From a candidate division WOR-3 bacterium (GTDB lineage: Bacteria > Hydrothermota > Hydrothermia > UBA1063), in assembly GCA_039803545.1 (NCBI GenBank), contig JBDRYS010000001.1, positions 623,866 through 687,865 on the forward strand: DNA of 64,000 bases, in the 5' to 3' direction. Under the pieces are notes generated by a model. The model did not search any database. It saw only the letters and a list, made by a program, of their open reading frames with translations, and was not told where the DNA came from. Positions within the stretch are counted from its first letter, which is position 1. Each line of letters starts with the position of its first letter. Positions 35,632 to 50,522 of this stretch are shown piece by piece. The position numbers and the translations under genes are program-made.

Positions 35632-35660
35632 ATTTTAATGCTAAATCACCTTGAATTCAA
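35632..35660 (-). promoter_or_regulatory. Promoter for the hypothetical - barrel - tilS - hpt - ftsH run
   Basis: Minus strand TTGAAT (35660-35655), 17-bp spacer, TAAAAT (35637-35632), 26 bp before the ATG at 35606. The -35 box overlaps the stop of the upstream DUF3857 gene. This could allow expression independent of the upstream genes. Confidence 0.55.
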
Positions 35661-37399
35661 TGTTTACGTTCGAGAATAACCACGTGTGTCGACCAAAAAT
35701 CTTTAACTTCAGGTGTCCCATTGATTTTAATCAAATCGCTATAGCCAATATACCTTTTCAAATACCTGATACGCTGTTGTATCGTGACCCTGTCTTGGTC
35801 AACCTTCAGATCTCTTTCCAGGGATAGATTTCTATCCGAATAAGAAACGGATGGAGGAACATACTTTATTATGTACCCATTGGGTATTTTGACAATGAAG
35901 CAAACTTCTCTTTTTAAAACATTCCGAAAGCCCAAATAGAAGCCATTTCTAAATAACTCGGGGTCGATTTTGGGCATTTCCGGGATGTTTAAAATTAGAT
36001 ATCTTCCACTCTGTGAACCAATGCTCTTTAACCTGACTTTCCCGTTAATATAATAGGGTTTCTCTACATCCTTCTGGTTTCTTAGAACAGCCTTAAAATC
36101 TTTGATAACACCATATTCAGCAAACTCATTAGGCGAAACAAAGTTTTTTATGTTTTCAAGCTCTTCCTCCTCTTCACTCCAACTGCGGGAGAAGGAGCCG
36201 AGAAACCTATAAGAAGGGATCCACTTGGAAAACGAGATCAATTTTTTGGGAATATTAACAATTAGTGTTTCAGCGTACACATCTTTTCCTTCCACTTCCT
36301 GAACAGAATAGCTATTTAAGTCGGGGGAAAGTACAATCGCAACATGGCCTTCGTAAGGGGTGCTCAGTATCTTTTTTTCTCCCTGAAAGGGATATAAAAA
36401 GCTTTTACCATCATAAAGAATTATACTTTCTATGGCTGACAAAGCAGGAATTACCTTTAAAGTGTCAAACCCATAACGCAATACAAAAGCAGGGGAAAGC
36501 CCTTCAAAGGAGGAGATGAGTTTTAAAATTTCCTCGGGATAGGTCATAGAATTAAAGGATGCAGAACGTTCCCTATTTAAAGGAACATATCCCTGGATCT
36601 TGAAGCTTTCATCTTCAGGTGAATTTATCTTTTTACTTAGTTCTTCAAGCCGGCAAAGATCAAATTTCTGTGGTTTTATAGACTCAATCCTTTTGTAGTG
36701 TGCCAGCAAATAATGGGCTAAGGAATCCCATGTGGGAAAAGTAGAAAAGATCACATAGGGCGATATTAAATATTGTGGAGGGTATCCACCCCATCGGTTT
36801 CTAAAGATTTCAGGGAGATCTTTAACTTCAAACTCATAGATTCTACACCCTGATGAGTCTCTTAATCTTTCGGAATGGTCGTAACCCTCGACATTACCTT
36901 TCTGAAACCTTAAACCTGCATCAGGACTAAAGTAAAAAACCATTTTGCTATATTCAACGGGTATAGTAGTCCTGAAATACTCGATTCCATCAACATATTC
37001 GAAATTTCGCACAGTTCTCTCTATGCAATATTCGATAGTTGAACCAGGTTTAATAGAGACAAAGGAAATGTGAAGCTCTTTTCTGCTTTTAAGGAAAGGA
37101 TAAGCATCAATGGTGGGATCTGCCACTCTGTTTATAGCATTCTCAGGAACGTTTATCGTGTCACCATCTGGACTAATAGTGCGAGCATAAATTATTTTGA
37201 TATTCTCTGTTGAATCGTCATAAGGGAAAACCAAAGTACCGAACTCTTCTTTTGCATCCTCGGTCTTTATCAAGATCTTCTTCTCTTCTTTTATAGTTAG
37301 CAAACTGTCCCCAAGCCGGTATTCCTTGTAGCTGTACTTTACAAGATCTCCTCTACCTGCAATAAATTGCCCAAACAAAATTATATAAAAAAGCACCAT
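35657..37399 (-). CDS. DUF3857-domain secreted protein lacking a transglutaminase triad
   Basis: A signal peptide (MVLFYIILFGQFIAG) precedes a DUF3857 beta-sandwich (about 20-190, with KYSYKEYRLGDSLLTIKEEK and VPENAINRVADPTIDAYP). The part where a transglutaminase domain would lie contains no Cys-His-Asp set; a single C in the SVFYSPDAG region is not placed like it. It follows the related 633-residue gene by 3 bp and looks like its non-catalytic paralogue. Likely periplasmic; function unknown. The pair may form an envelope complex. Confidence 0.7.
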   Translation of the reverse strand: MVLFYIILFGQFIAGRGDLVKYSYKEYRLGDSLLTIKEEKKILIKTEDAKEEFGTLVFPYDDSTENIKIIYARTISPDGDTINVPENAINRVADPTIDAYPFLKSRKELHISFVSIKPGSTIEYCIERTVRNFEYVDGIEYFRTTIPVEYSKMVFYFSPDAGLRFQKGNVEGYDHSERLRDSSGCRIYEFEVKDLPEIFRNRWGGYPPQYLISPYVIFSTFPTWDSLAHYLLAHYKRIESIKPQKFDLCRLEELSKKINSPEDESFKIQGYVPLNRERSASFNSMTYPEEILKLISSFEGLSPAFVLRYGFDTLKVIPALSAIESIILYDGKSFLYPFQGEKKILSTPYEGHVAIVLSPDLNSYSVQEVEGKDVYAETLIVNIPKKLISFSKWIPSYRFLGSFSRSWSEEEEELENIKNFVSPNEFAEYGVIKDFKAVLRNQKDVEKPYYINGKVRLKSIGSQSGRYLILNIPEMPKIDPELFRNGFYLGFRNVLKREVCFIVKIPNGYIIKYVPPSVSYSDRNLSLERDLKVDQDRVTIQQRIRYLKRYIGYSDLIKINGTPEVKDFWSTHVVILERKH

Positions 37400-37402
37400 A
37401 CC

Positions 37403-39304
37403 TTATTCTCCTTTTAAAATCAGCCAAAGGCTTTCATTTTCCTGAAAATCTCTATAATCTCTGTACATTGTCCTGACTTCATCCGGAGAGTATTGCCTTT
37501 TGTCGAACCTAAGCATAGTTGACACCAGGTACCAATCTTGGATCCCGTTGTTCCCTGCAACATTTTTTAGTTCCTTGGTGGCTCTCTCATCGGCCTTTTG
37601 ACTCACGAATTCTAACCGGTAAGAATTCTCTTTACCAAGAACCTGACGTTTTACAAAAGGTTCCTCCACTTTGCTGTAAGGTATATACTCTGTCACTTCA
37701 ACCGATTGGGGAAATCTGATCTTGAAATCCAGTTTCCTTTCCAATGTTAAGAATTCTAAGAAATAGACAAAACTCTTGCCAATTTTAAAACTTACTGGCC
37801 TGTAAAGCTTGAAATCAGGCGTCTTAACAATCTCATTAAAAACTTTGCCAAAAATCTGCACTTTGAAATAATCGAAATAATCCTGAGGCTCTGTAAAGCT
37901 AAGAGAATCGATCACCAGGGTGCCGGTATAAACATTACTCAAACTGTTACGGACAAATCTTTCGATCCCTTTTCTGCCGCCCTGTGCAATTCTACGAAAC
38001 TGCTGATCAAAACCACCATTAAACTTCATTAGATAATTAAAATAAACAGTATCCCCTTTTATATCAGTAAACAGGAAAATTGAGACCTTATTGCTGTCAG
38101 AAGAGGACAAGGGAATCGTCCTCAGAGTATCTCCCTCTTCCCTTGACACCAAAACACTTTGCCCACCTTCCGATGCTGGCATCAAGTCTCTTCCACCAGC
38201 CCCAATCGTTGGATCCAGATATTCGTAGTCATTCCCTTTCTCCAAAGCCACAATAGCGTGATTAGTCTGATCTGCGGGGATATTCTCCATCCTCATTCCC
38301 GCTGCTGTGGTTGCATAATATGCTTTAAAACCTTGAGCTCTGAGGAGTGCAACAAGCAGAGCGGCCTTATCTTTACAAACCCCCGATCTCTTCTCGAGAG
38401 TCAAGGAGGCCGGGTGGGGTTCATACCCTTCCATCTCCGATTCCATCAAACCGAGATACCTTATTTCATCCGCTACAAAATAGAATAGTTTCCTTATTTT
38501 CTCATTTTCGTCGGTAATCCCCTGGCATAGGCTGTCAGCAAAACTTTTTACCCTCTCATCAGGAGTAACATTGGGCTCCGCTCTTTGGAATTCAATGCGG
38601 GACATTTCCCTCCAGGAAGGGATGTTAGTTACAATAAGCTTTGGCAGGTAGTCATATTGACTTGGCGAAAAAGGCTCCGACTTATATGGTTTAATGTTTT
38701 TCAGGTAAAACACGTGAAGTCTTTTCCCATCCCTATTCAGGATACGGTGCTTAATTTTACCATTGAAAATTCCATATCTCACAGGCTTTTCCTTTAATTC
38801 CTCCAGCACGTAAACTTTCTTTTTTATCGGGACCGGTGACCCAAAGAGCATTATCTGATTAAAATACCCTAAATAGGGCGTCTTATATTTTTCACTGCCC
38901 GTTGGCCCGAGCCAGTTTCCTCCATATTTTCTTACTTTACTCTCAAGGATATCACCCTTCTTCAAATCTTTGACTTCAAGAATTTTTTCTCTTTCGCCCC
39001 AGAAAATAGTTCCACCAAGATCAGGTGGTGCTAAAACATCAACAATGTTCTTCGTATCCAGATACAATGTGTCTTTACCCCTTATAATCCTCACGTAATC
39101 AAAATCAGCGGTGTTATAGTAAGGGGTGTAAGAAACAGTTAAAGAACTTAATCCTTCAGGAACCTGGTCGCTTAAAATTTTGTATCGAAGATATTCGAAC
39201 CTCTCACTGATCCCACTCTGATAATAGACTTCATAAGTGGAATCAAGCTCCACGACATATCCAAACTTCACAAATATAAACAAACTCAAAAATAGCTTAA
39301 GCAT
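37403..39304 (-). CDS. DUF3857-transglutaminase-like secreted protein
   Basis: After a signal peptide (MLKLFLSLFIFVKFGYV) a DUF3857 domain (about 20-230) leads into a transglutaminase-like core with C310 in RSGVCKDKAALLVALLR, H349 in TNHAIVAL and D364 in YLDPT, the complete Cys-His-Asp triad. A beta-rich C-terminal domain (about 400-630) follows. Such proteins are common in Bacteroidota-like envelopes and may cut or cross-link peptides; the substrate is unknown. It lies between the V-ATPase operon (38 bp upstream) and its non-catalytic paralogue. Confidence 0.85.
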   Translation of the reverse strand: MLKLFLSLFIFVKFGYVVELDSTYEVYYQSGISERFEYLRYKILSDQVPEGLSSLTVSYTPYYNTADFDYVRIIRGKDTLYLDTKNIVDVLAPPDLGGTIFWGEREKILEVKDLKKGDILESKVRKYGGNWLGPTGSEKYKTPYLGYFNQIMLFGSPVPIKKKVYVLEELKEKPVRYGIFNGKIKHRILNRDGKRLHVFYLKNIKPYKSEPFSPSQYDYLPKLIVTNIPSWREMSRIEFQRAEPNVTPDERVKSFADSLCQGITDENEKIRKLFYFVADEIRYLGLMESEMEGYEPHPASLTLEKRSGVCKDKAALLVALLRAQGFKAYYATTAAGMRMENIPADQTNHAIVALEKGNDYEYLDPTIGAGGRDLMPASEGGQSVLVSREEGDTLRTIPLSSSDSNKVSIFLFTDIKGDTVYFNYLMKFNGGFDQQFRRIAQGGRKGIERFVRNSLSNVYTGTLVIDSLSFTEPQDYFDYFKVQIFGKVFNEIVKTPDFKLYRPVSFKIGKSFVYFLEFLTLERKLDFKIRFPQSVEVTEYIPYSKVEEPFVKRQVLGKENSYRLEFVSQKADERATKELKNVAGNNGIQDWYLVSTMLRFDKRQYSPDEVRTMYRDYRDFQENESLWLILKGE

Positions 39305-39343: not shown

Positions 39344-40753
39344 TCAACTTCCCGCCTTCTTCAAATACTTTTCGATGAATTGAGGCCTTATCCTCTTCAG
39401 CTCCGACGTTGGGAACATAGATAGCAATTCCCACCCAAGGTCAAGGGTCTCCTCGATGCTTCTATCTTCAAATTCCCCTTGACCGACGTACCTTTCCTCA
39501 AAAAGATCAGCAAATTTGAAATAAATCTTATCAATTTCTGAAAGCGCACCTTCACCGAGAATAACTGCCAATTCTTGAACTTCCTTACCCCTCGCATAGC
39601 AGGCGAAAAGCTGGTTGAAAACATCCGCATGATCTTCCCTTGTCTTGCCTTTTCCAATACCCTTATCCTTTAATCTTGAAAGCGAAGGCAATACATCAAT
39701 AGGTGGGTAAATCTTCTTTCTGTGAAGGGTCCTTGAAAGGATAATCTGTCCCTCAGTGATGTATCCAGTAAGGTCTGGAATGGGATGGGTTTTATCATCC
39801 TCGGGCATCGTGAGGATTGGGATTAATGTAATAGAACCTTTTTTACCTTTAATTCTACCAGCTCTCTCATAAATCGTTGCCAGGTCAGTATAAAGATATC
39901 CAGGATACCCCCTCCTTCCGGGAACTTCCTTCCTCGCCGCCGAAATTTCACGCAGCGCTTCGCAGTAATTTGTCATATCGGTCAAGATAACAAGCACGTG
40001 CATGTCTTTCTTGAAGGCAAGATACTCCGCAGTTGTTAAAGCAACTCTTGGGGTTGCTATTCTTTCGATCGCAGGGTCATCTGCAAGGTTAATAAAGAGA
40101 ACTGCCCTTCCAATAGCTCCGGTGTCTCTGAAGCTTTTTATAAAGAACTCGGCTTCCTCAAAAGTAATTCCCATCGCTGCAAAGACCACCGCAAAGCTTT
40201 CTCCCTCTCCCCTCACTTTTGCCTGCCTTGCAATCTGTGTAGCGAGCCTGTTGTGAGGCAAACCAGAACCTGAGAATATCGGCAGTTTCTGTCCCCTTAC
40301 AAGAGTATTTAATCCGTCAATTGCGGATATACCTGTCTGAATGAACTCATTTGGATAATCCCTGGCATAAGGGTTTATAGGGGCTCCATTGATGTCCGCC
40401 CTCTCTTCTGGAACAACCTCGGGACCGCCGTCAATGGGACGACCGAGACCATCAAAAACCCTACCCAGCATGTCTAAGGAAAGATTTATTTCAAGACCTT
40501 TTGCAAGGAACCTTATAGAAGTTTTAGGAATATCAATCCCGGAAGTACCTTCAAAGACCTGCAAAAGGACCTTGTCCTCTTCAACCTGTAAAACTTCGCC
40601 TCTACGTCTTTCACCGGAAGGTAGCTCAATCTCCACAAGTTCTCCATATTTTACCCCACGAACTCCTTCAACAAGCATTAACGGGCCCGAAATATTTGTA
40701 ACGGTATTAAACTTAGAGAGCCTCTTCCTAACTAACTGGCTGTCTAACTTCAT
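39344..40753 (-). CDS. atpB: V-type ATPase subunit B
   Basis: The 469-residue non-catalytic nucleotide-binding subunit of the V1 head. It has [20 protein letters not shown] at the N-terminus, [20 protein letters not shown], the degenerate P-loop region [16 protein letters not shown], and the arginine-bearing [17 protein letters not shown]. It overlaps subunit A by 26 nt. It is the last gene of the ATPase operon here: the D gene that normally follows B is absent. Confidence 0.97.
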
Positions 40754-42485
40754 AATCCATCTCCTTTAACAATTTTTCAATCTCCTTTAATTCTTGTTCA
40801 GAGAAATACTTCATCCTTGCTACCTTTTCCCAGATGGGTCTTTTCCTCAAATCTCTAACCGTGGCTTCACCCTTAGCGATAATCTCCTTACAAAGGTCGT
40901 AGAGTTTCAAAATGACTTTAAGCATGAGGTATTGCTTCTTAATGGAGGCAAAGGTATCTACCTCATGGAAAGCGTTTTGATGCAAGAAATCCTCGCGTAT
41001 ACTCCTTGCAATTTCAAGAAGCAATTGGTCATCTTGAGAAAGCGCTTCTGCACCTACGAGTCTAACAATTTCCTCTAATTCTGCTTCCTTCTCAAGTATC
41101 TTCATTGCTTCAAGGACCATGTCATAAAAATCAGGGGCCACATTCCTTTCATAGTAAGCTTTCAAATCCTCCCTATAAAGTGAATAGCTTGTCAACCAGT
41201 TAATCGCAGGAAAATGCCTTCGATAAGCAAGTTTATCTTCGAGACTCCAGAAAACTTTAACAACTCTCAAAGTTGACTGAACTACTGGATCTGAAAGATC
41301 GCCTCCCGGTGGAGAGACTGCACCTATAACTGTAAGAGAACCTTCCCTATTCTCACTTCCAAGACACGTAACTCTTCCTGCCCTCTCATAAAAACTGGCA
41401 ACCCTCGCTGCGAGGTATGCAGGATAACCTTCCTCACCGGGCATCTCTTCCAAACGCCCTGAAATCTCTCTCAACGCCTCAGCCCATCTGGAAGTAGAAT
41501 CGGCCATAAGGGCCACTGAATATCCCATATCTCTGAAATACTCTGCAATAGTAATACCGGTATAAATGGACGCTTCCCTTGCAGCCACTGGCATGTTAGA
41601 TGTATTGGCAATTAGAACTGTTCTTTTCATCAGTGGTTCACCGCTATAAGGGTCTTTTAGCTCTGGGAACTCAATAAGTACATCCGTCATCTCATTTCCT
41701 CTTTCACCGCAACCAATATAAACAACAATATTCGCATCAGACCATTTAGCAAGCTGGTGCTGGATGACCGTTTTACCCGAACCAAAAGGTCCTGGAACGC
41801 AAGCAGTCCCTCCCTTGGCAATGGGGAAGAAGGTATCAATAACCCTTTGACCAGTAAACATAGGGGCATTAGGTAAATGTTTTTCTTTATAGGGCCTTGG
41901 AATCCTGACGGGCCATTTCTGCATCATCCTGATCTCGTGCAAATTGCCCTCTTTATCTTTCACTATTGCGACAACGTCTTCGACAGTAAATACACCTTCC
42001 TTAATCTCTTCAATCACACCATTTATTCCCGGTGGAATCATTATCTTATGTTTCACTAAAGTGGTTTCATCAACCTCGCCTATAATATCCCCTTCCTCTA
42101 CAATATCACCCTTTTTCACCTTGGGAACAAAAAACCACTTCTTATCTCTTGGTAAAGCAGGTACATGGATACCCCGTGAAATGAAATCGCCTGATAAAAT
42201 CTTTATTTTATCAAGAGGCCTTTGAACACCGTCAAAGAAAGACTCAATAAGCCCGGGACCGAGCTCAACCATTAAAGGATAACCCGTTCCATAAACGGGA
42301 TCACCAGGACCTACTCCATGGGTATCTTCGTACACCTGAATATACGCTCTGTCCCCCTTTAATTCGATAACTTCACCCAAAAGTTTCATTTCTCCAACAT
42401 AAACAACATCATACATCTTGGTTCCAAGCATCCCATCGGCTACCACAAGGGGACCGGAAACTTTAACAACCCTTCCAGCTTTCAT
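40728..42485 (-). CDS. atpA: V-type ATPase catalytic subunit A
   Basis: The 585-residue catalytic subunit carries the P-loop [14 protein letters not shown], the non-homologous bulge insertion (about 110-190, with [13 protein letters not shown]), Walker [20 protein letters not shown] and the [11 protein letters not shown] catalytic region. It hydrolyses or makes ATP with subunit B in an A3B3 head. Length and motifs are standard. Confidence 0.98.
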
Positions 42486-42495
42486 TTTCTACCTC

Positions 42496-42804
42496 CTAAA
42501 AGATATCAATGCCAATGGCCTTAAGTAAAATTGATCTCAACTTTTCTCGCGCCTGGCCAGTACTACCACCTGCACCAGGTATAAAAGTAATTGCAGGTGA
42601 TGCCTGTTCCCTCACGCTTTCCACGATCTCTTGAACACTTTGAAAATAATCCTCTTCTATAAAAATCAAACCATAATTCTCAGAAATAAGACTTTTTAAT
42701 GCTTCCTTAGCTTCTTCTCCGGTGTTACACACTCTGTATTCCATCCCTATTGCCTTTAGAGGGAAAACGGTCTCATATTTTCCAAGGCAAATTACCTTTT
42801 TCAT
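42496..42804 (-). CDS. atpF: V-type ATPase subunit F
   Basis: A 102-residue Rossmann-like central-stalk subunit. The start KKVICLGKYETVFPLKAIGMEY and the later YGLIFIEEDYFQSV and PAITFIPGAGG match the bacterial/archaeal V-type F family. It is coupled to subunit C by a 4-nt overlap and precedes A by 10 bp, the usual C-F-A order. The partner subunit D that it normally binds is not encoded nearby. Confidence 0.9.
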   Translation of the reverse strand: MKKVICLGKYETVFPLKAIGMEYRVCNTGEEAKEALKSLISENYGLIFIEEDYFQSVQEIVESVREQASPAITFIPGAGGSTGQAREKLRSILLKAIGIDIF

Positions 42805-43820
42805 AACACCTCCGGAATTCTTTCTATTACAAGCTCCTTGGGCAGCTGGTTCAGTTTCGATACCATAATCATTCTGAGCAAAGATATTTCGTTTTTCTTC
42901 CTGAAAAAGTATGATATCAAAACCTCCACCCCGAGGTCCTTTTTAGATGCCTCTTTTATAAGCCCATTCAAGTAATTAGAGATATCCTTTTCCATTTTTA
43001 CAAAACTCCCTGACTTCTGATAAAGGGAATATCCTGGCTGAAGAACTTGGTAATAAACGGTTTGTCTCACTTCGTATAGAAGGGTATTAAAGTCAGGAGC
43101 TTTAAGGAATAATTCCCTTGGTAAGTAACCAGCGTCAAGAAGCACATTTTTCAGAATGGATAATTTACCCATTCTCTCAAGCCTGAGAAAGGATAACATA
43201 TTCTTGAGGTCAGCACTTAGGTTGTAATAAACTCTTAAAAACTCAAAACCAGAAGAGTTGACAAAATACCTGTACATCACATTATCAATAGCAGCATCAA
43301 TCCTGAAAATTTCTTTTGACTCATAATAAGAGTCAACGGCGCTTTCGTACGCATCGTAAATCTCTTTTGAAAGCATTTCGCCTTTACCAGATTCCAGCGC
43401 AACTTTGAAAAGGGTTACAGGGTAATAGGAGTACTTAGAATATGAATAGGAAAAATCACGCTCAAATATAAGGGACTTCACCAACACTTTTAAGTTCAAA
43501 AAATCATAAGGTAACCTTAAATCCTTGACTAAAGAAGGTTCAACCGCTAATTCAGAAATCAGGGACAGAAGTTTTTCGTTTTCTTTTTTGAGGAGGATTT
43601 CAAAGTCCGACGGCTTGTGTATATCACTTAAGTACTTAGAATAATCGGTATCCTGGAGCATCTTGAAAAGTTCTTCTATATCTTTAGAGGAAGCCAAACG
43701 TTCAAATCTAACCCGATCAAACAGTTTAGTCTCGAGGGCTTTTACTCTTCCACAGGCATAAGCGTATTCAGGATTATCCCTTCCAAAGGAAGGATACTTT
43801 GTAAAAGGCAGTCTTAGCAT
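42801..43820 (-). CDS. atpC: V-type ATPase subunit C (central-stalk socket)
   Basis: An all-helical 339-residue protein beginning YAYACGRVKALETKLFDRVRFERL, the family signature, with a second conserved stretch ISYFFRKKNEISLLRMIMVSK at the C-terminus (normally LxxYxxxKxxEVxxLR). It links the central stalk to the membrane rotor. It is followed by F at a 4-nt overlap and preceded by E at 3 bp. Confidence 0.9.
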   Translation of the reverse strand: MLRLPFTKYPSFGRDNPEYAYACGRVKALETKLFDRVRFERLASSKDIEELFKMLQDTDYSKYLSDIHKPSDFEILLKKENEKLLSLISELAVEPSLVKDLRLPYDFLNLKVLVKSLIFERDFSYSYSKYSYYPVTLFKVALESGKGEMLSKEIYDAYESAVDSYYESKEIFRIDAAIDNVMYRYFVNSSGFEFLRVYYNLSADLKNMLSFLRLERMGKLSILKNVLLDAGYLPRELFLKAPDFNTLLYEVRQTVYYQVLQPGYSLYQKSGSFVKMEKDISNYLNGLIKEASKKDLGVEVLISYFFRKKNEISLLRMIMVSKLNQLPKELVIERIPEVL

Positions 43821-43823
43821 AAT

Positions 43824-44399
43824 TTAGAAAAACAAGATATTGGAAACGTGAACTTCTGTTTCTTCCTGCAAAATTTCCATTAACTTTTCTATCGATGCAT
43901 CAATTGTAGAGTGGGATCCTTTCGCAATAAATCCACCGCTGATTTTTACCGGTTTTTCAGAAATTCTTAAGTTCCAGCCTTTTTCCCTGTTTAGTTTCTC
44001 AATAAAATCCTTAGTGATCACAGGCTCGTTCTCTGACACAAAGATTTCCTCATCACCATTAAGATCAACAATTTCAAAGAGTCTCTTCACGATCTCACTA
44101 TAAATACCCTTGTCTTCAAGAATGTGTCTTTGGACCTTTCCGTATATCTCCTTCAAAATATCCCTTTTAACCTTTGCAATCTCAACGTTCGACTTTATCT
44201 CATAATCGGCGATAAGGGCATTTAGCCTTTGGATAACCAGCTTTTCCTTTTCCTGTTGAGCCTTTGCAAGAATTTCTTTGACCCTATTATCCGCATCTTG
44301 AAGAATTCTGTCTCTTTCAGATATTGCTTTATCCAGAATTTCACGCCTTTTAAGGTCAGCTTCTTCTTTTATTTTATTCAATATTTCTTGAAGGCCCAA
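43824..44399 (-). CDS. atpE: V-type ATPase subunit E (peripheral stalk)
   Basis: 191 residues with an N-terminal coiled coil (LQEILNKIKEEADLKRREIL through about 90) and a C-terminal globular domain (ISGGFIAKGSHSTIDASIEK). It forms the stator stalk with the H/G-type subunit encoded at the head of the operon. The GGFI motif before the C-terminus is typical of the family. Confidence 0.9.
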   Translation of the reverse strand: MGLQEILNKIKEEADLKRREILDKAISERDRILQDADNRVKEILAKAQQEKEKLVIQRLNALIADYEIKSNVEIAKVKRDILKEIYGKVQRHILEDKGIYSEIVKRLFEIVDLNGDEEIFVSENEPVITKDFIEKLNREKGWNLRISEKPVKISGGFIAKGSHSTIDASIEKLMEILQEETEVHVSNILFF

Positions 44400-44410
44400 T
44401 ATCGACCTCC

Positions 44411-44881
44411 TTAGACCCTGATTCCAATTAGTATAAATATTGTTGCAAGAAGCCCGAGAACGGCATAGGTCTCTACCAGACCTGCATAAATCACAGGCTG
44501 CATTGAAGATTCCGGCTTCTTCGCTGCCATTTCAACACCTGCAGTGCACACTTTACCCTGATGGATCGCCGAGAAATATCCAAGAAAAGTCACAGGAATA
44601 ACGGCGAGAAGGATTTGGAGACCTTGCATAAACTCGAGAGGTTTAACCTGCCCAAGAAGTCCAACTTTAATAATGACAAGGAGGGCAGCAATAAATCCAT
44701 AAAAACCCTGTGTACCCGGAAGCGCAACTAATAGGAACAACCTTCCAAACTTGCTCGGGTCTTCAGACAACACACCTGCGGCTGCTCTGGCCGTCATTCC
44801 TACACCGATCGCTGAACCAAGGCCTGGTAAAAAAGTCGCCAGTCCAGCACCAAGTATTGATAACCAAAGTCCTGCAGTCAA
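44411..44881 (-). CDS. atpK: V-type ATPase subunit K (membrane rotor ring), predicted sodium-binding
   Basis: The 156-residue four-helix (double-hairpin) proteolipid carries the residues that bind Na+ in Enterococcus hirae NtpK: L54, T57 and Q58 in ALPGTQGFYGF, Q108 in AIHQGKV and E137 in GLVETYAVLG (NtpK L61, T64, Q65, Q110, E139). The surrounding blocks align almost letter for letter. Hence a Na+-translocating ring is predicted; H+ cannot be excluded without experiment. It lies between the I and E genes. Confidence 0.93.
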   Translation of the reverse strand: MTAGLWLSILGAGLATFLPGLGSAIGVGMTARAAAGVLSEDPSKFGRLFLLVALPGTQGFYGFIAALLVIIKVGLLGQVKPLEFMQGLQILLAVIPVTFLGYFSAIHQGKVCTAGVEMAAKKPESSMQPVIYAGLVETYAVLGLLATIFILIGIRV

Positions 44882-44882
44882 C

Positions 44883-46853
44883 TTACACCTCCTGTTTTTT
44901 AATTTCTACAATTTCAGTGTATTTCCCTTCCCACTTCAATGGAAGGAATGGTGTTCCTCCATCATCATAAAATTGTTTGAAAAATTCAACATATTGCAAA
45001 CGTAGAGGATGAACAATAGAACCAAGAATATTTATCGCAAAGCTAAACAAATGACCGAAGACAAAAACAATCGGACCTAATATATAACCAACAATTGGGA
45101 TCTGCCAGACAAGCAAAGTTAAAATATTAATCGCCATTGCAATTCCCGAAGAGGTAAGACCAAGAGCCATCAAACGAACATAAGAGAGAAGATCTCCAAT
45201 AAAACCTACTCCATTGTATACATTATAGGCACCTTTAATAATGCGTATGATGAAATTCCTGCTATGTCTCGAACTAAACAAGACCATAAATAAAACAAAG
45301 AGCAAAGCAACCCCTTTCACTGCATTGTTTAATAACGGGTTTGAAACCTTTCCTGCAAAAAGCCCCATATACGCAAGGGAGAGTAAAATCACAATCCAGG
45401 CGATGGGCTGAGAAAGGGCACCAAGGGTATCACCCTCTTTTATTCTCTTATAAGCGTTTACTGCAAGCCCTACATTTATTTGAATGAATCCTAAAGCAAT
45501 TGTCAATGCGAAAAAGGTCATTACGTCGGTCATGGGATCAAATAGCATCATCTTTTTCCGGAAAGCATTAAGGGGTCCAATATTAGCTCGTTCAAAGAAA
45601 TCACCAAACCAACCACCAGTTAAAGCCCCAAAGATCATCGAAACGATCCCGCCACTAAACAGAATCCACAAAAGAGGAGCCGAAATTTTTAGTTTTCTCA
45701 TTAACCAGATCGAGAAAATAGCAAGAAGAAGTCCATAAGCAGCATCACCGTAACAAATACCAAAGAATAGAACAAAGAATGGAGTTATCAAAGCAGTGGG
45801 GTCGGGATCTATATAGGACGGAAGTCCATACATCCTCACCAATCCCTCAAAGGGCTTAAAAATCTTACTGTTTTCTAATTCAACGGGAAGTTCTTCACCG
45901 TCCTCCAAATTTACTACCTCATAATAAGCGGTTTCAAACTCAGAAAAAATTTTGTCAAGTTTCGAGAGATCTCTTTCTCTCACAAAGCCTTGATAGACTG
46001 AAATACAGGCGGTCTTAAGCCCTCGATTATCTGTCAATTCCCTATTATATATTGCAAGGTAATAGTCGTGAAGTACAAGAAGAGAATCATAATGCGCAGA
46101 GACCTTTTCTATCGCTTGCTTCAAATTTTTCTTTTCCTCTTCAAGAACTTTGATTCGATTGTCAATTTCTTCAAGAATATCTGCAGGACGCCCCGTATAA
46201 CCGTGAAACTCGATCTGCTCAAACTCTTTTTCCTGCAATATAGGACGAACTAAATCTTCATCTTTCGTATGGTAAACTATAACAACATAGGCCCTCTTCC
46301 CATCATCAGAGACGAGCTGGTAAGCCAAAGGATAATCCTCAAGAGACGGGAGTTTATTACTGGGAATAGAACCAGGGAGCATTATGAGTTCATTTGTACT
46401 TTTAATTTCTTCAAGATTGTAATTCAGGTTTACCCAGGGCAAAATAAAATTCCTCTGTGCAATTAGATTAGATTCCTCCTGAGCCAGCTGAGCCAATTCC
46501 TGTTCTAAGGTCTCAACCTGAACTAAAATTGTACCAGGCTCAACACAGTTGGCAATTTTGAAAAACTCTTTCTTCTCAAAGGCTTTCTTTGCTTCGTATA
46601 AGCTTTCAATTAACGACTTCTTTTTCGCGAAGCTCTCAAGAAAATTTATGGCATTGGAAAGCCTTGTGATAACCGCTTCAAGGTGAGATTCAAACTCAAC
46701 TTCAGACAAATGAGTAACACCAAATTCCTCTTTTAAATCCTTTCTTATTTCCGTGAAGTGAATGAGTCCCTCGTCTTGAAGCCGTTCCAGTAACTTCTCC
46801 CTCTCCGAATAATGGACGTAAAAAACAACCTTCTTTAAAGGTATTTTAGCCAT
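44883..46853 (-). CDS. atpI: V-type ATPase subunit I (membrane stator)
   Basis: The 656-residue protein has a cytoplasmic N-terminal half with coiled coils (about 1-330) and a C-terminal membrane half of seven to eight helices beginning around PFFVLFFGICYGDAAYGLLL. The conserved arginine near SYVRLMALGLTSSGIAMAIN is the one that faces the rotor ring in the family. It forms the ion half-channels and anchors the stator. It lies 2 bp upstream of K. Confidence 0.95.
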   Translation of the reverse strand: MAKIPLKKVVFYVHYSEREKLLERLQDEGLIHFTEIRKDLKEEFGVTHLSEVEFESHLEAVITRLSNAINFLESFAKKKSLIESLYEAKKAFEKKEFFKIANCVEPGTILVQVETLEQELAQLAQEESNLIAQRNFILPWVNLNYNLEEIKSTNELIMLPGSIPSNKLPSLEDYPLAYQLVSDDGKRAYVVIVYHTKDEDLVRPILQEKEFEQIEFHGYTGRPADILEEIDNRIKVLEEEKKNLKQAIEKVSAHYDSLLVLHDYYLAIYNRELTDNRGLKTACISVYQGFVRERDLSKLDKIFSEFETAYYEVVNLEDGEELPVELENSKIFKPFEGLVRMYGLPSYIDPDPTALITPFFVLFFGICYGDAAYGLLLAIFSIWLMRKLKISAPLLWILFSGGIVSMIFGALTGGWFGDFFERANIGPLNAFRKKMMLFDPMTDVMTFFALTIALGFIQINVGLAVNAYKRIKEGDTLGALSQPIAWIVILLSLAYMGLFAGKVSNPLLNNAVKGVALLFVLFMVLFSSRHSRNFIIRIIKGAYNVYNGVGFIGDLLSYVRLMALGLTSSGIAMAINILTLLVWQIPIVGYILGPIVFVFGHLFSFAINILGSIVHPLRLQYVEFFKQFYDDGGTPFLPLKWEGKYTEIVEIKKQEV

Positions 46854-46856
46854 AAA

Positions 46857-47162
46857 TCAAGAAAGTTTACTTAACAAAAATTCAATGGCCGTTTTCTCTT
46901 TTCTCTCGGCCCTGTTTTTCAATTCCTGTACCTCAACTACCAACTCCTTTTCTAATTCTTTTATCTTCTCTTGCGCCTGTTTCTGGGCCTCTTCCTCAAC
47001 CGTAAGGAGAATTTCCTTCCTTTTGCTTAAAGCTTCTTCAATCCTCTGCGTTGCCAGTCTCTGGGCTTCACTTATGATTAGATTCGCCTCTTCCTGAGTT
47101 TTCTTAATCATTTCTTCGGCTTCCTTCTCGGCATCCTTGATCTTTTTGATAATATCCTCCAT
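46857..47162 (-). CDS. V-type ATPase peripheral-stalk subunit H/G
   Basis: A 101-residue almost continuous coiled coil (EDIIKKIKDAEKEAEEMIKK through about 90) rich in E and K, the form of V-type H/G stalk subunits that pair with E. It is the first gene of the ATPase operon, 3 bp before I. An AGGAGG ribosome site precedes the ATG. Position and composition give the call; sequence alone would be low-complexity. Confidence 0.8.
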   Translation of the reverse strand: MEDIIKKIKDAEKEAEEMIKKTQEEANLIISEAQRLATQRIEEALSKRKEILLTVEEEAQKQAQEKIKELEKELVVEVQELKNRAERKEKTAIEFLLSKLS

Positions 47163-47207: not shown

Positions 47208-47285
47208 AATACGCACTAAGGTGCTCATAATAACGAGCGTTTAAAAAACCTTAAACGGGCTTTGGGGTTTGAATATTTACATGCG

Positions 47286-50200
47286 ATGGAACATAATAAA
47301 TTCATGCTTTTGACGTATCTGTTAATAAAGGTACTGTTGTTAAGTGGAACCGCAAAAATAGCCTTCCTACACCATGGAAATCAACATTTTTCCGACAACG
47401 GTGCCTATGTTCTAAGGCCTGGAGATTACGGTTACAATGGCAACTCTTTCCATCGAACCCTCGATACTCACGAATATTACAATTGTCCCATTGACATCCA
47501 CATCTCGGGAACCCTTACCCAGTCCTACACCTGGATGCAAAATGACAGGGGGTTATTAAATAGACTTCGTGGAGACCTGGTCTATATCGTGGGAGGAACA
47601 TATGCAGAGCATATAATGCCCTATGTCGATAGCAGTTTAAACAAATTTTCCCTCTGGTATGCAAAAACCCTTTACGAAAACTCGATTAAGGGAGTGGGAT
47701 GGCCGGATTATCCAAATGTGATATGGATTCCAGAGAGGGTTTTCAAATCAGAACTATTAATGCCCTACTCTTTAATAAAGGTTCTAAACGAAGAATATGG
47801 GAAATACGATTCACAAGGGAGATACCTTGCACCATGCATTGTGTTAGACGATAACGTCCACGAGTGGTTTTCTCACACCTATCCTAATGGAACGGAATGT
47901 CATAATTCAAGGAAGGTACACCGGATGTTTGACAACGAGGGTAACTATGTGTTTGTTGTGTTCATACAAAAGGTTGCACGGGACCAGATGGTATGGAACG
48001 ATGTCTCCAATCCCTCAAACCCTCTGCATCAGTTACTATTGTCCCTTGCAAACGATCCAGATCAAGAACAATTAGTGATATACGGTGATGATTGGGAAAA
48101 GGCAGCGGGAGTTGCAGGATGGGACTTCGGTAACCCGGGAGCACCAGCCTCCAGTTACGACTGGAATATCAGATTCATTAAACAACAATCCTGGATTCAG
48201 CCTGTTCACATAGCCGAAGCCGTAAAATGGTGGGGGGTTGACAAAATTTATGATAACGATCCCAATAATGACCCCCCAGTAATTACTATCAATTATGCAG
48301 CTTATCAGGAACTTCACGATTGGACCGGTGGTAACTATGACAACTGGTATAATGATTTTAAAAACACAAGAGGCTGGGGATGTGAGTATGGTCCAGATTT
48401 AAACGGAAACGGAGTGACAGGGGATTACGAAGACTTGTGGAAATTTGCCTACAACAAGCTCATGAACGTTCCCGACAACGAGTTTGCTAAACTGGGCTGG
48501 ACTACCCTCTCGTCTATGCTTTACGAAACTGCATGGCACACGGGCCCTGGCGGCTATTTGGTTTTTTGGGGAAAAAATCTTTGGAACCACGCAAGGTACG
48601 GAGGAATCTTTTCCTACGGTGCAATCTGGCTTGACTCTTTGAGATTTCAACAAGTTCCTAAAATAGACAGTTTAGACCTTGATGCAGACGGCGTTAAAGA
48701 ATTCACTATTTATAATGACAAAATGTGTTTGATTTTTGACAGAAGAGGTGGACGTGCCCTTGCGGTCTTCACATCGGATACATCTTGTGTCGTAGGCAAT
48801 CTGATGAGTAATTGGAGTGGTGAAGGCGATTATAATGATGGGGGTCATCCAGGCCTTTTAAACGATTCTCAGGGTGAAAATTCATGGTTTGACGTGAATG
48901 TTTCTTACTCTGGAGACACGGCGATTCTTACTTTTACTGAAAGATACGACTGGAGCGGGAATCCTCAAAGCGACTTAAGGAAAACAATAAAGATTACACC
49001 TAATAAAAACTTCATTTCCGTCACGTATAATTCCACATACACCAACTGGACTAAGGCAGGTGTAACTCCTTCCCTTTACAAACAGATACTCAAAGGCTAC
49101 AATATGAGGCCGATTTACGGGGTGAGTCAGAATGGTTGGACTTACGGAGGATACGAAAGCCTTTACGATTCAGTAAAAGCGGTTTTCCTATATCCTTCAG
49201 GCACTGGTCTAACCTTCAACTTCCTCGGTAAGATGTCTTCAGGCGCGGAGCTCATTGAAATTGGAGGAAAAAACGGTGCTTATACTATTTACTTCTACGC
49301 AGGAAAAGGTAGTCCTGATATAGACCTTACAGGGCCGGGAGATAGAGAAGGGCCAAGAATCTGGAATACCACTTTTAGCCCAAATTTCAACATTCTTGAG
49401 AGCGATAGTGTTCTTGTGACAACTAACGTCTTAGACCCCTCTGGAATACTCGGTGTGTGGGTTAGATACACAAACAATAACTGGCAGAGCTTTACAGACC
49501 TTCAAATGTTACCTGATGATGGGCTCGGTAGAGATTACAACGGAAATCATGAACCAGACCCTTCTCTTTATGGTGTTTTCATCCCGCCACAGCCAAATGG
49601 GACAAGGGTGTACTTTGCAATTCGGGCTAAAGACAACTCCCCTTATCAAAATGAAAGCTGGGACAACAACAATGGACAAAACTATTCATACACTGTTGGA
49701 TTTCAGGATTTTGTGATGGATGGGGCACTTGATAGGGTTGCCGTGCTTTTATCGCAGAACGAGAATATGCACCTTTATGGATATTACGATAGAAACACGA
49801 AGAGGCTCTACGTGGCAACGGAGTCGGCAGGCAATGCATCAGCTAATCAATCAGGCTACTTTTACAACGACCATTTCATTTTCATCTCCTTTAACCCAAG
49901 CGCTATGGTAAACGCCCCTTGGGCAAAGCAGGGACAGGTTGGGAGGTTTAACTTTTTCCTTGCCGACGAAGACAACAATGATTTTGTTGGCTGGTTTGAT
50001 TCAACGGGAACTCTAATTACAGACACAGTAAATTTTAAATGTGCATCTTATGTAAGTGACCAGGGATACCTCGAAGGAGTAATAAACCTTTCACCCTTTG
50101 GCAATCCAAGTGTAATTTACATTGCGGTGGGTTCCTACGCAACTCAAGATGGTGGAACTCTCCAGTGGCAGGTACCAATGCCAAGAACCCAAAACGGCGA

Positions 50201-50522
50201 TATCGAATCGGACGAATATTACCAACTTCTCCTTGACTCATCCTATGTGGGTGACAGCCTGAGTTCGAAAAAAATAATAGTAAGTTCCATTGTAAAAGCG
50301 GGCCAGCCTTTAAAATTAAGGTTGTCATCTTCAATTCCAGGCACCATATCCTGCACAATATACAACGCCTATGGTGGAGTCCTGAAAAAGATAGAAATTC
50401 CGTTGAATAGTAAAAACTTCAACACCTCCATTCCTTTTGAAAATGCAACCCCTGGAGTATACTTTATCCAGATACACACTGACAACTTTGAAACAACCCA
50501 AAAGGTAGTGGTAGTCCGATGA
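47286..50522 (+). CDS. Secreted glycoside hydrolase family 57 protein with DOMON-like and T9SS-like C-terminal domains
   Basis: After a signal peptide (hydrophobic stretch TYLLIKVLLLSGTA) a GH57 core contains FLHHGNQHF, NVIWIPERVF with the probable nucleophile Glu (codon 47733-47735) and QLVIYGDDWEKAAG with the probable acid Asp. A beta-sandwich follows (about 460-690), then a DOMON/glucodextranase-C-like domain (about 820-980, DGALDRVAVLL, NFFLADEDNNDFVGWF) and a C-terminal Por/T9SS-like sorting domain (SKKIIVSSIVKAGQ ... VYFIQIHTDNFETTQKVVVV). It should degrade external alpha-glucans. An in-frame TTG at 47262 is possible; ATG 47286 gives the better signal peptide. The ribosome site is weak. 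Confidence 0.85.
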   Translation: MEHNKFMLLTYLLIKVLLLSGTAKIAFLHHGNQHFSDNGAYVLRPGDYGYNGNSFHRTLDTHEYYNCPIDIHISGTLTQSYTWMQNDRGLLNRLRGDLVYIVGGTYAEHIMPYVDSSLNKFSLWYAKTLYENSIKGVGWPDYPNVIWIPERVFKSELLMPYSLIKVLNEEYGKYDSQGRYLAPCIVLDDNVHEWFSHTYPNGTECHNSRKVHRMFDNEGNYVFVVFIQKVARDQMVWNDVSNPSNPLHQLLLSLANDPDQEQLVIYGDDWEKAAGVAGWDFGNPGAPASSYDWNIRFIKQQSWIQPVHIAEAVKWWGVDKIYDNDPNNDPPVITINYAAYQELHDWTGGNYDNWYNDFKNTRGWGCEYGPDLNGNGVTGDYEDLWKFAYNKLMNVPDNEFAKLGWTTLSSMLYETAWHTGPGGYLVFWGKNLWNHARYGGIFSYGAIWLDSLRFQQVPKIDSLDLDADGVKEFTIYNDKMCLIFDRRGGRALAVFTSDTSCVVGNLMSNWSGEGDYNDGGHPGLLNDSQGENSWFDVNVSYSGDTAILTFTERYDWSGNPQSDLRKTIKITPNKNFISVTYNSTYTNWTKAGVTPSLYKQILKGYNMRPIYGVSQNGWTYGGYESLYDSVKAVFLYPSGTGLTFNFLGKMSSGAELIEIGGKNGAYTIYFYAGKGSPDIDLTGPGDREGPRIWNTTFSPNFNILESDSVLVTTNVLDPSGILGVWVRYTNNNWQSFTDLQMLPDDGLGRDYNGNHEPDPSLYGVFIPPQPNGTRVYFAIRAKDNSPYQNESWDNNNGQNYSYTVGFQDFVMDGALDRVAVLLSQNENMHLYGYYDRNTKRLYVATESAGNASANQSGYFYNDHFIFISFNPSAMVNAPWAKQGQVGRFNFFLADEDNNDFVGWFDSTGTLITDTVNFKCASYVSDQGYLEGVINLSPFGNPSVIYIAVGSYATQDGGTLQWQVPMPRTQNGDIESDEYYQLLLDSSYVGDSLSSKKIIVSSIVKAGQPLKLRLSSSIPGTISCTIYNAYGGVLKKIEIPLNSKNFNTSIPFENATPGVYFIQIHTDNFETTQKVVVVR

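Follow-up and report, generated by a model that had tools for sequence, protein, structure and literature searches.

The K gene in the window (the whole 64,000-nucleotide stretch of WOR-3 DNA analyzed here) encodes, with a probability of about 0.82, the rotor of a sodium-coupled V-ATPase of the NtpK kind, which would work reversibly in a Na+ cycle throughout the WOR-3 phylum. The residues, fold, gene set, conservation, and co-occurrence are observations; the ion, the direction, and the coupling are deduced from them.

The K frame is a single 156-aa ORF on the minus strand, with AGGAGGT upstream of its TTG start codon; the plus-strand translation is riddled with stops. The coordinates proposed for this gene in an earlier note on the same DNA stand, and its strand is corrected here to minus. 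A phmmer search of PDB sequences gave NtpK of Enterococcus hirae (2bl2) as the top match of K (6.3e-34), the next being at 2.7e-4. In this alignment, L54, T57, Q58, Y61, Q108, and E137 of K lie opposite the NtpK site residues (Table 1). The NtpK site also comprises L61, T64, and Y68. The numbering of Q65, Q110, and E139, and part of the ligand roles, follow the available portion of PMC2359735. In the same phmmer output, the human H+ proteolipid carries hydrophobic residues at the T and Q places, with the T/Q pair missing, and the Thermus proteolipid carries Leu and Phe at the Q and Y places. Comparison with NtpK and the Thermus proteolipid, which the earlier note had suggested, thus matches K to the NtpK site.

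K is a four-helix duplicated hairpin of the PF00137 family with one carboxylate, located in hairpin 2, the ligands L, T, Q, Q, and E, and the supporting Y. A Thermus-type two-helix rotor is a single hairpin with its own carboxylate, and K has two hairpins with Gly in the first. Because Gly56 occupies the hairpin 1 carboxylate position, every four helices share a single ion site, which is also the NtpK arrangement. Each K subunit would accordingly hold one site, predicted to bind Na+ through Glu137, Gln108, Thr57, Gln58, and the Leu54 carbonyl.

The predicted structure of K (pLDDT 96.2) has 2bl2 as its best PDB match (TM 0.89), and the modelled fold superposes on NtpK with a Z score of 22.9 and an rmsd of 1.1 Å over 149 residues at 43% identity; at the level of the fold, the structural modelling that had been named as a possible refutation agrees with NtpK. 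A four-helix K was found in 109 genomes of the phylum. Excluding the partial K of one genome (G092), 108 proteins were retrieved and aligned, the window's own included (105 distinct sequences), and all six site residues are complete in every one. Identity to the window K falls as low as 49% in this set, and just 23 of the 156 positions never vary; the chance that six random positions are all invariant is about 6e-6. The nearest named relative is UBA5631 (89%), and the named relatives include many candidate division WOR-3 MAGs, for which NCBI gives the phylum as Caldifarciminota. The claim that L, T, Q, Q, and E all occur in K in matching contexts is thus borne out by both the NtpK alignment and the conservation.

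K is the third gene of an operon that runs leftward in the order 101-aa stalk-like protein, I, K, E, C, F, A, B. Subunit I is closest to Enterococcus NtpI (3.8e-59 vs. 8.7e-18 for Thermus), and its Arg560 (codon 45174-45176) and Arg618 (codon 45000-45002) align with Arg residues of NtpI. The bacterial V-ATPase set of I, K, E, C, F, A, B, and D plus the stalk subunit H/G is complete, with E under the cut-off, H/G assigned by position only, and D elsewhere. The D gene lies about 560 kb from the operon, beside a probable lgt gene. It was not found in the 4.7 kb that follow B in a genome of the same genus (G053, L146) and directly follows B in one of the same order (G046, L147). Beyond the end of the operon, and on its strand, come two DUF3857 proteins in tandem, one of which has a transglutaminase core (window 35657-39304). 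Divergent from it lies the gene of a 1086-aa secreted protein that, as read by eye, resembles a glycoside hydrolase and has a sorting-like domain at its C-terminus (window 47262-50522).

Table 1. V-ATPase genes and ion-site codons of K (window positions unless stated otherwise)
Feature	Position	Strand	Basis or remark
Rotor subunit K, NtpK-type, 156 aa, four helices, one carboxylate	44411..44881	-	TTG start
Leu54 codon (NtpK Leu61, backbone ligand)	44720..44722	-	alignment
Gly56 codon (hairpin 1 carboxylate position, empty likewise in NtpK)	44714..44716	-	alignment
Thr57 and Gln58 codons (NtpK Thr64, Gln65)	44708..44713	-	alignment
Tyr61 codon (NtpK Tyr68, supports Glu)	44699..44701	-	alignment
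Gln108 codon (NtpK Gln110)	44558..44560	-	alignment
Glu137 codon (NtpK Glu139, ion-binding carboxylate)	44471..44473	-	alignment
First operon gene, 101 aa, coiled-coil-like, probable peripheral stalk subunit (H/G)	46857..47162	-	position and sequence reading; no Pfam match
Stator subunit I (a)	44883..46853	-	nearest to Enterococcus NtpI
Subunit E (peripheral stalk)	43824..44399	-	PF01991, slightly under cut-off
Subunit C (d)	42801..43820	-	PF01992
Subunit F	42496..42804	-	PF01990
Catalytic subunit A	40728..42485	-	
Subunit B	39344..40753	-	D not next in operon
Subunit D	G000:C1:66047-66619 (L001:1468-2091)		outside window, same contig, single copy

The genome (1.67 Mb, four contigs, 99% complete) was searched for possible sodium partners. 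It has one RnfD/NqrB gene, inside a full Rnf set in which RnfA, B, C, D, E, and G all score above the curated cut-offs of the TIGR rnf models. RnfG (L039:6438-7388) is 316 aa long and is covered by the rnfG models only up to residue 178; its other half contains a second GAT flavin-site-like motif, and RnfG may be a tandem duplicate. In a further locus (L038:7981-18390), a Rex-like regulator precedes Mrp-type antiporter subunits, after which come Nuo/Mbx-like subunits and a flavoprotein carrying ferredoxin domains. We take this redox complex to resemble Mbx/Mbs. Its large subunit has a single Cys in each of two metal motifs (C69, C366), which suggests that the complex is not a normal NiFe hydrogenase.

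The single membrane pyrophosphatase has Ala477 at position 12.46, Glu247 at 6.53, and Gly251 at 6.57 (numbering from the available text of PMC10897367). According to the accessible parts of PMC10897367 and PMC9408878, Ala at 12.46 (K+-dependent) together with Glu at 6.53 and no Glu at 6.57 marks a Na+-PPase or Na+,H+-PPase, and K+-insensitive enzymes have Lys at 12.46. The enzyme is therefore predicted to be a K+-dependent pyrophosphatase that pumps Na+ (or Na+ and H+). The Glu position by itself was rejected as proof, since the K+-insensitive H+ pump 8b37 also carries Glu; only the combination with Ala12.46 is informative. Two symporters of SSF, the symporter family searched, are present, and the OAD beta subunit, another Na+ pump, was not found in the genome. 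Among the Na+-coupled partners looked for, then, Rnf, the pyrophosphatase signature, the Mrp-type complex, and the symporters were recovered and OAD beta was not. With the site conserved across the phylum and this partner set present, the sodium bioenergetics predicted in the earlier note gains support, and as a prediction from sequence it most likely describes a cell that runs its energy economy on sodium ions.

Judging from relatives and signature residues, Na+ would be exported by Rnf and the Na+-type pyrophosphatase, and probably also by the Mrp-type redox complex. The returning Na+ most likely drives ATP synthesis by the V-ATPase. No second PF00137 gene was found in the 99% complete genome; as K is the only rotor gene found, the ATP pool would be tied to the Na+ gradient through the V-ATPase. 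In reverse, the complex may act as an ATP-driven Na+ pump, as suggested by the reversible E. hirae enzyme, which in liposomes carried out Na+-driven ATP synthesis at about 3.2 Na+ per ATP (available part of PMC12018189).

The direction could differ from this. As in Enterococcus, the V-ATPase might serve a fermenting cell solely as a Na+ exporter driven by ATP and make no ATP there, a reading that bears on direction alone and shares ground with the Na+ interpretation. One carboxylate per four helices is also found in E. hirae, whose enzyme works as a pump (PMC12018189, available part), and with such a rotor fewer ions are moved per ATP, as befits a pump. However, with Na+ as the driving ion, the E. 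hirae enzyme does synthesize ATP (PMC12018189, same portion). E. hirae also has an F-ATPase (a title cited in PMC2359735), whereas no other rotor gene was found here, and Rnf would already export Na+. A purely exporting role is therefore a serious but unlikely alternative to a reversible, Na+-coupled V-ATPase.

The distribution of rotor types was surveyed in 147 genomes of the phylum. A rotor match was obtained in 130, with a four-helix K in 109 and only a two-helix K in 21; the other 17 had none. RnfD/NqrB was found in 111 genomes and COX1 above the cut-off in 18. The two never occurred together (0/147), in agreement with the accessible part of PMC12542636. Genomes with only the four-helix rotor (n = 105) carried Rnf in 99 cases and COX1 in none, and those with only the two-helix rotor (n = 21) carried COX1 in 17 cases and Rnf in none. 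The four genomes with both rotors (G011, G023-G025) lacked Rnf, and one had COX1; among the 17 without a rotor match, 12 had Rnf and none had COX1. Six four-helix-only genomes gave no Rnf match (G008, G009, G026, G072, G074, G132), five of them being less than 90% complete. In these counts, G092 is scored as four-helix, and G055 and G066, with COX1 below the cut-off, as lacking COX1. G050 is scored as four-helix only, its second rotor match being of an archaeal-like type on a 4,466-base contig that is possibly contamination. The genome with both rotors and COX1 but no Rnf (G011) may likewise be contaminated (5%, 410 contigs). Fisher tests of rotor type against Rnf and COX1 gave about 1e-18 and 1e-17, values for related genomes that are not independent, since the two-helix-only genomes all belong to families f6-f11 of the window's class. 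They may represent one or two events. The sodium-type rotor and its set of partners are a general feature of the phylum.

Two separate V-ATPases occur among the WOR-3 genomes, one sodium-type and one Thermus-like with a two-helix rotor. In a tree of A subunits, the two rotor types are split by a branch with 100/100 support (19 rows vs. 62), indicating that the whole complex differs; an in-place swap of the rotor alone was rejected on this ground. Three genomes of family f5 (G023, G024, G026) have one A subunit on each side of the branch, so this family holds both complexes. The A subunit of the two-helix type, about 53-59% identical to the window A, scored 767 bits with Thermus and 625 with Enterococcus (G027), and the window A scored 722 and 777, respectively; archaeal A subunits outscore both references, slightly to clearly, for either type. 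The two-helix K adjoins an I gene in 15 of 15 loci (L144, L228-L241), with no A or B there, and the next gene is E in the single locus checked. Families possessing the Thermus-like enzyme thus have I and K in a cluster of their own, joined by E where this was checked, and A elsewhere in the genome. Inspected by eye, all 25 two-helix rotors retain a helix 1 Gln and a helix 2 Glu-Thr, and at the positions of NtpK Q65 and Y68 none has Gln or Tyr; four of them, from family f7, have Thr at the Q65 position.

A full switch from Na+ to H+ in the oxidase lineages was tested through their pyrophosphatases and rejected on that evidence, as these enzymes do not show the standard H+ signature. In the two-helix-only genomes (20 of 21 readable; G045 has no pyrophosphatase), Ala12.46 is present in 20/20, Glu6.53 in 16, Asp6.53 in four, and Glu6.57 in none. 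These enzymes keep either the Na+-type signature or Asp, which does not support a clean ion switch. Asp6.53, an unusual gate residue, is found in family f8 pyrophosphatases (L318, L319, L321, L322), whose genomes carry the two-helix rotor and COX1. We tentatively propose, while holding the scenario to be somewhat doubtful, that WOR-3 was ancestrally a sodium-cycle group with a reversible, Rnf-fed NtpK-type V-ATPase, and that one lineage acquired a whole second V-ATPase, of the Thermus-like kind. After an intermediate state with both enzymes (f5), this lineage would have dropped Rnf together with the sodium enzyme and adopted oxygen respiration. If so, a rotary ATPase type and a redox pump were exchanged as a set within one bacterial class.

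The ion itself might also be read differently, in that the rotor keeps its Na+ ligands yet is driven mainly by protons, or by both ions, in its natural habitat. Na+-type rotary ATPases carry H+ when Na+ is absent (PMC2359735, in the part available), and the authors describing the WOR-3 isolate sy37 view its V-type ATPase as serving as an H+ pump (PMC12285271, accessible text). Nevertheless, sy37 is one of the oxidase group, in which the other V-ATPase is probably present. The Na+ ligands, at least partly lost in H+-only enzymes, are invariant in all 108 K genes, and the pyrophosphatase bears a Na+-type signature. A mainly proton-driven or dual-ion rotor is therefore improbable. That the resemblance to NtpK reflects chance or lineage without a working ion site is hardly credible: although many residues would match anyway at this level of identity, those of the site are invariant while most K positions vary, human and Thermus proteolipids differ precisely there, and the fold matches NtpK.

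A sodium site of a known kind helps explain how energy is made in a poorly known phylum. Together with its partners and the two-ATPase pattern, this site yields a direct, testable sodium hypothesis, for which isolate sy37 offers a natural contrast. A literature search on WOR-3, sodium, and proteolipid, covering chiefly non-subscription papers, found no article, and the accessible portions of PMC12285271 and PMC12542636 do not give ATPase ion ligands for WOR-3.

Among known systems, the V-type Na+-ATPase of E. hirae shares with the present one the duplicated hairpin, the single carboxylate, all site residues of NtpK, the context of the stator Arg, and the operon content. It differs in that the WOR-3 rotor is 43% identical, D lies outside the operon, no other PF00137 rotor is found, and Rnf is present in the genome. 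The Thermus-type V-ATPase (6qum, 8yy1) belongs to the same superfamily, and a Thermus-like enzyme occurs in related WOR-3 families; unlike the window K, however, its two-helix K is a single hairpin with its own carboxylate and lacks Gln and Tyr where NtpK has Q65 and Y68. In Thermotoga maritima, Rnf exports Na+ and an F-type Na+-ATP synthase takes it back (PMC7414866, available part). The WOR-3 system likely works in the same way, with a V-type enzyme and an NtpK rotor in place of the F-type synthase.
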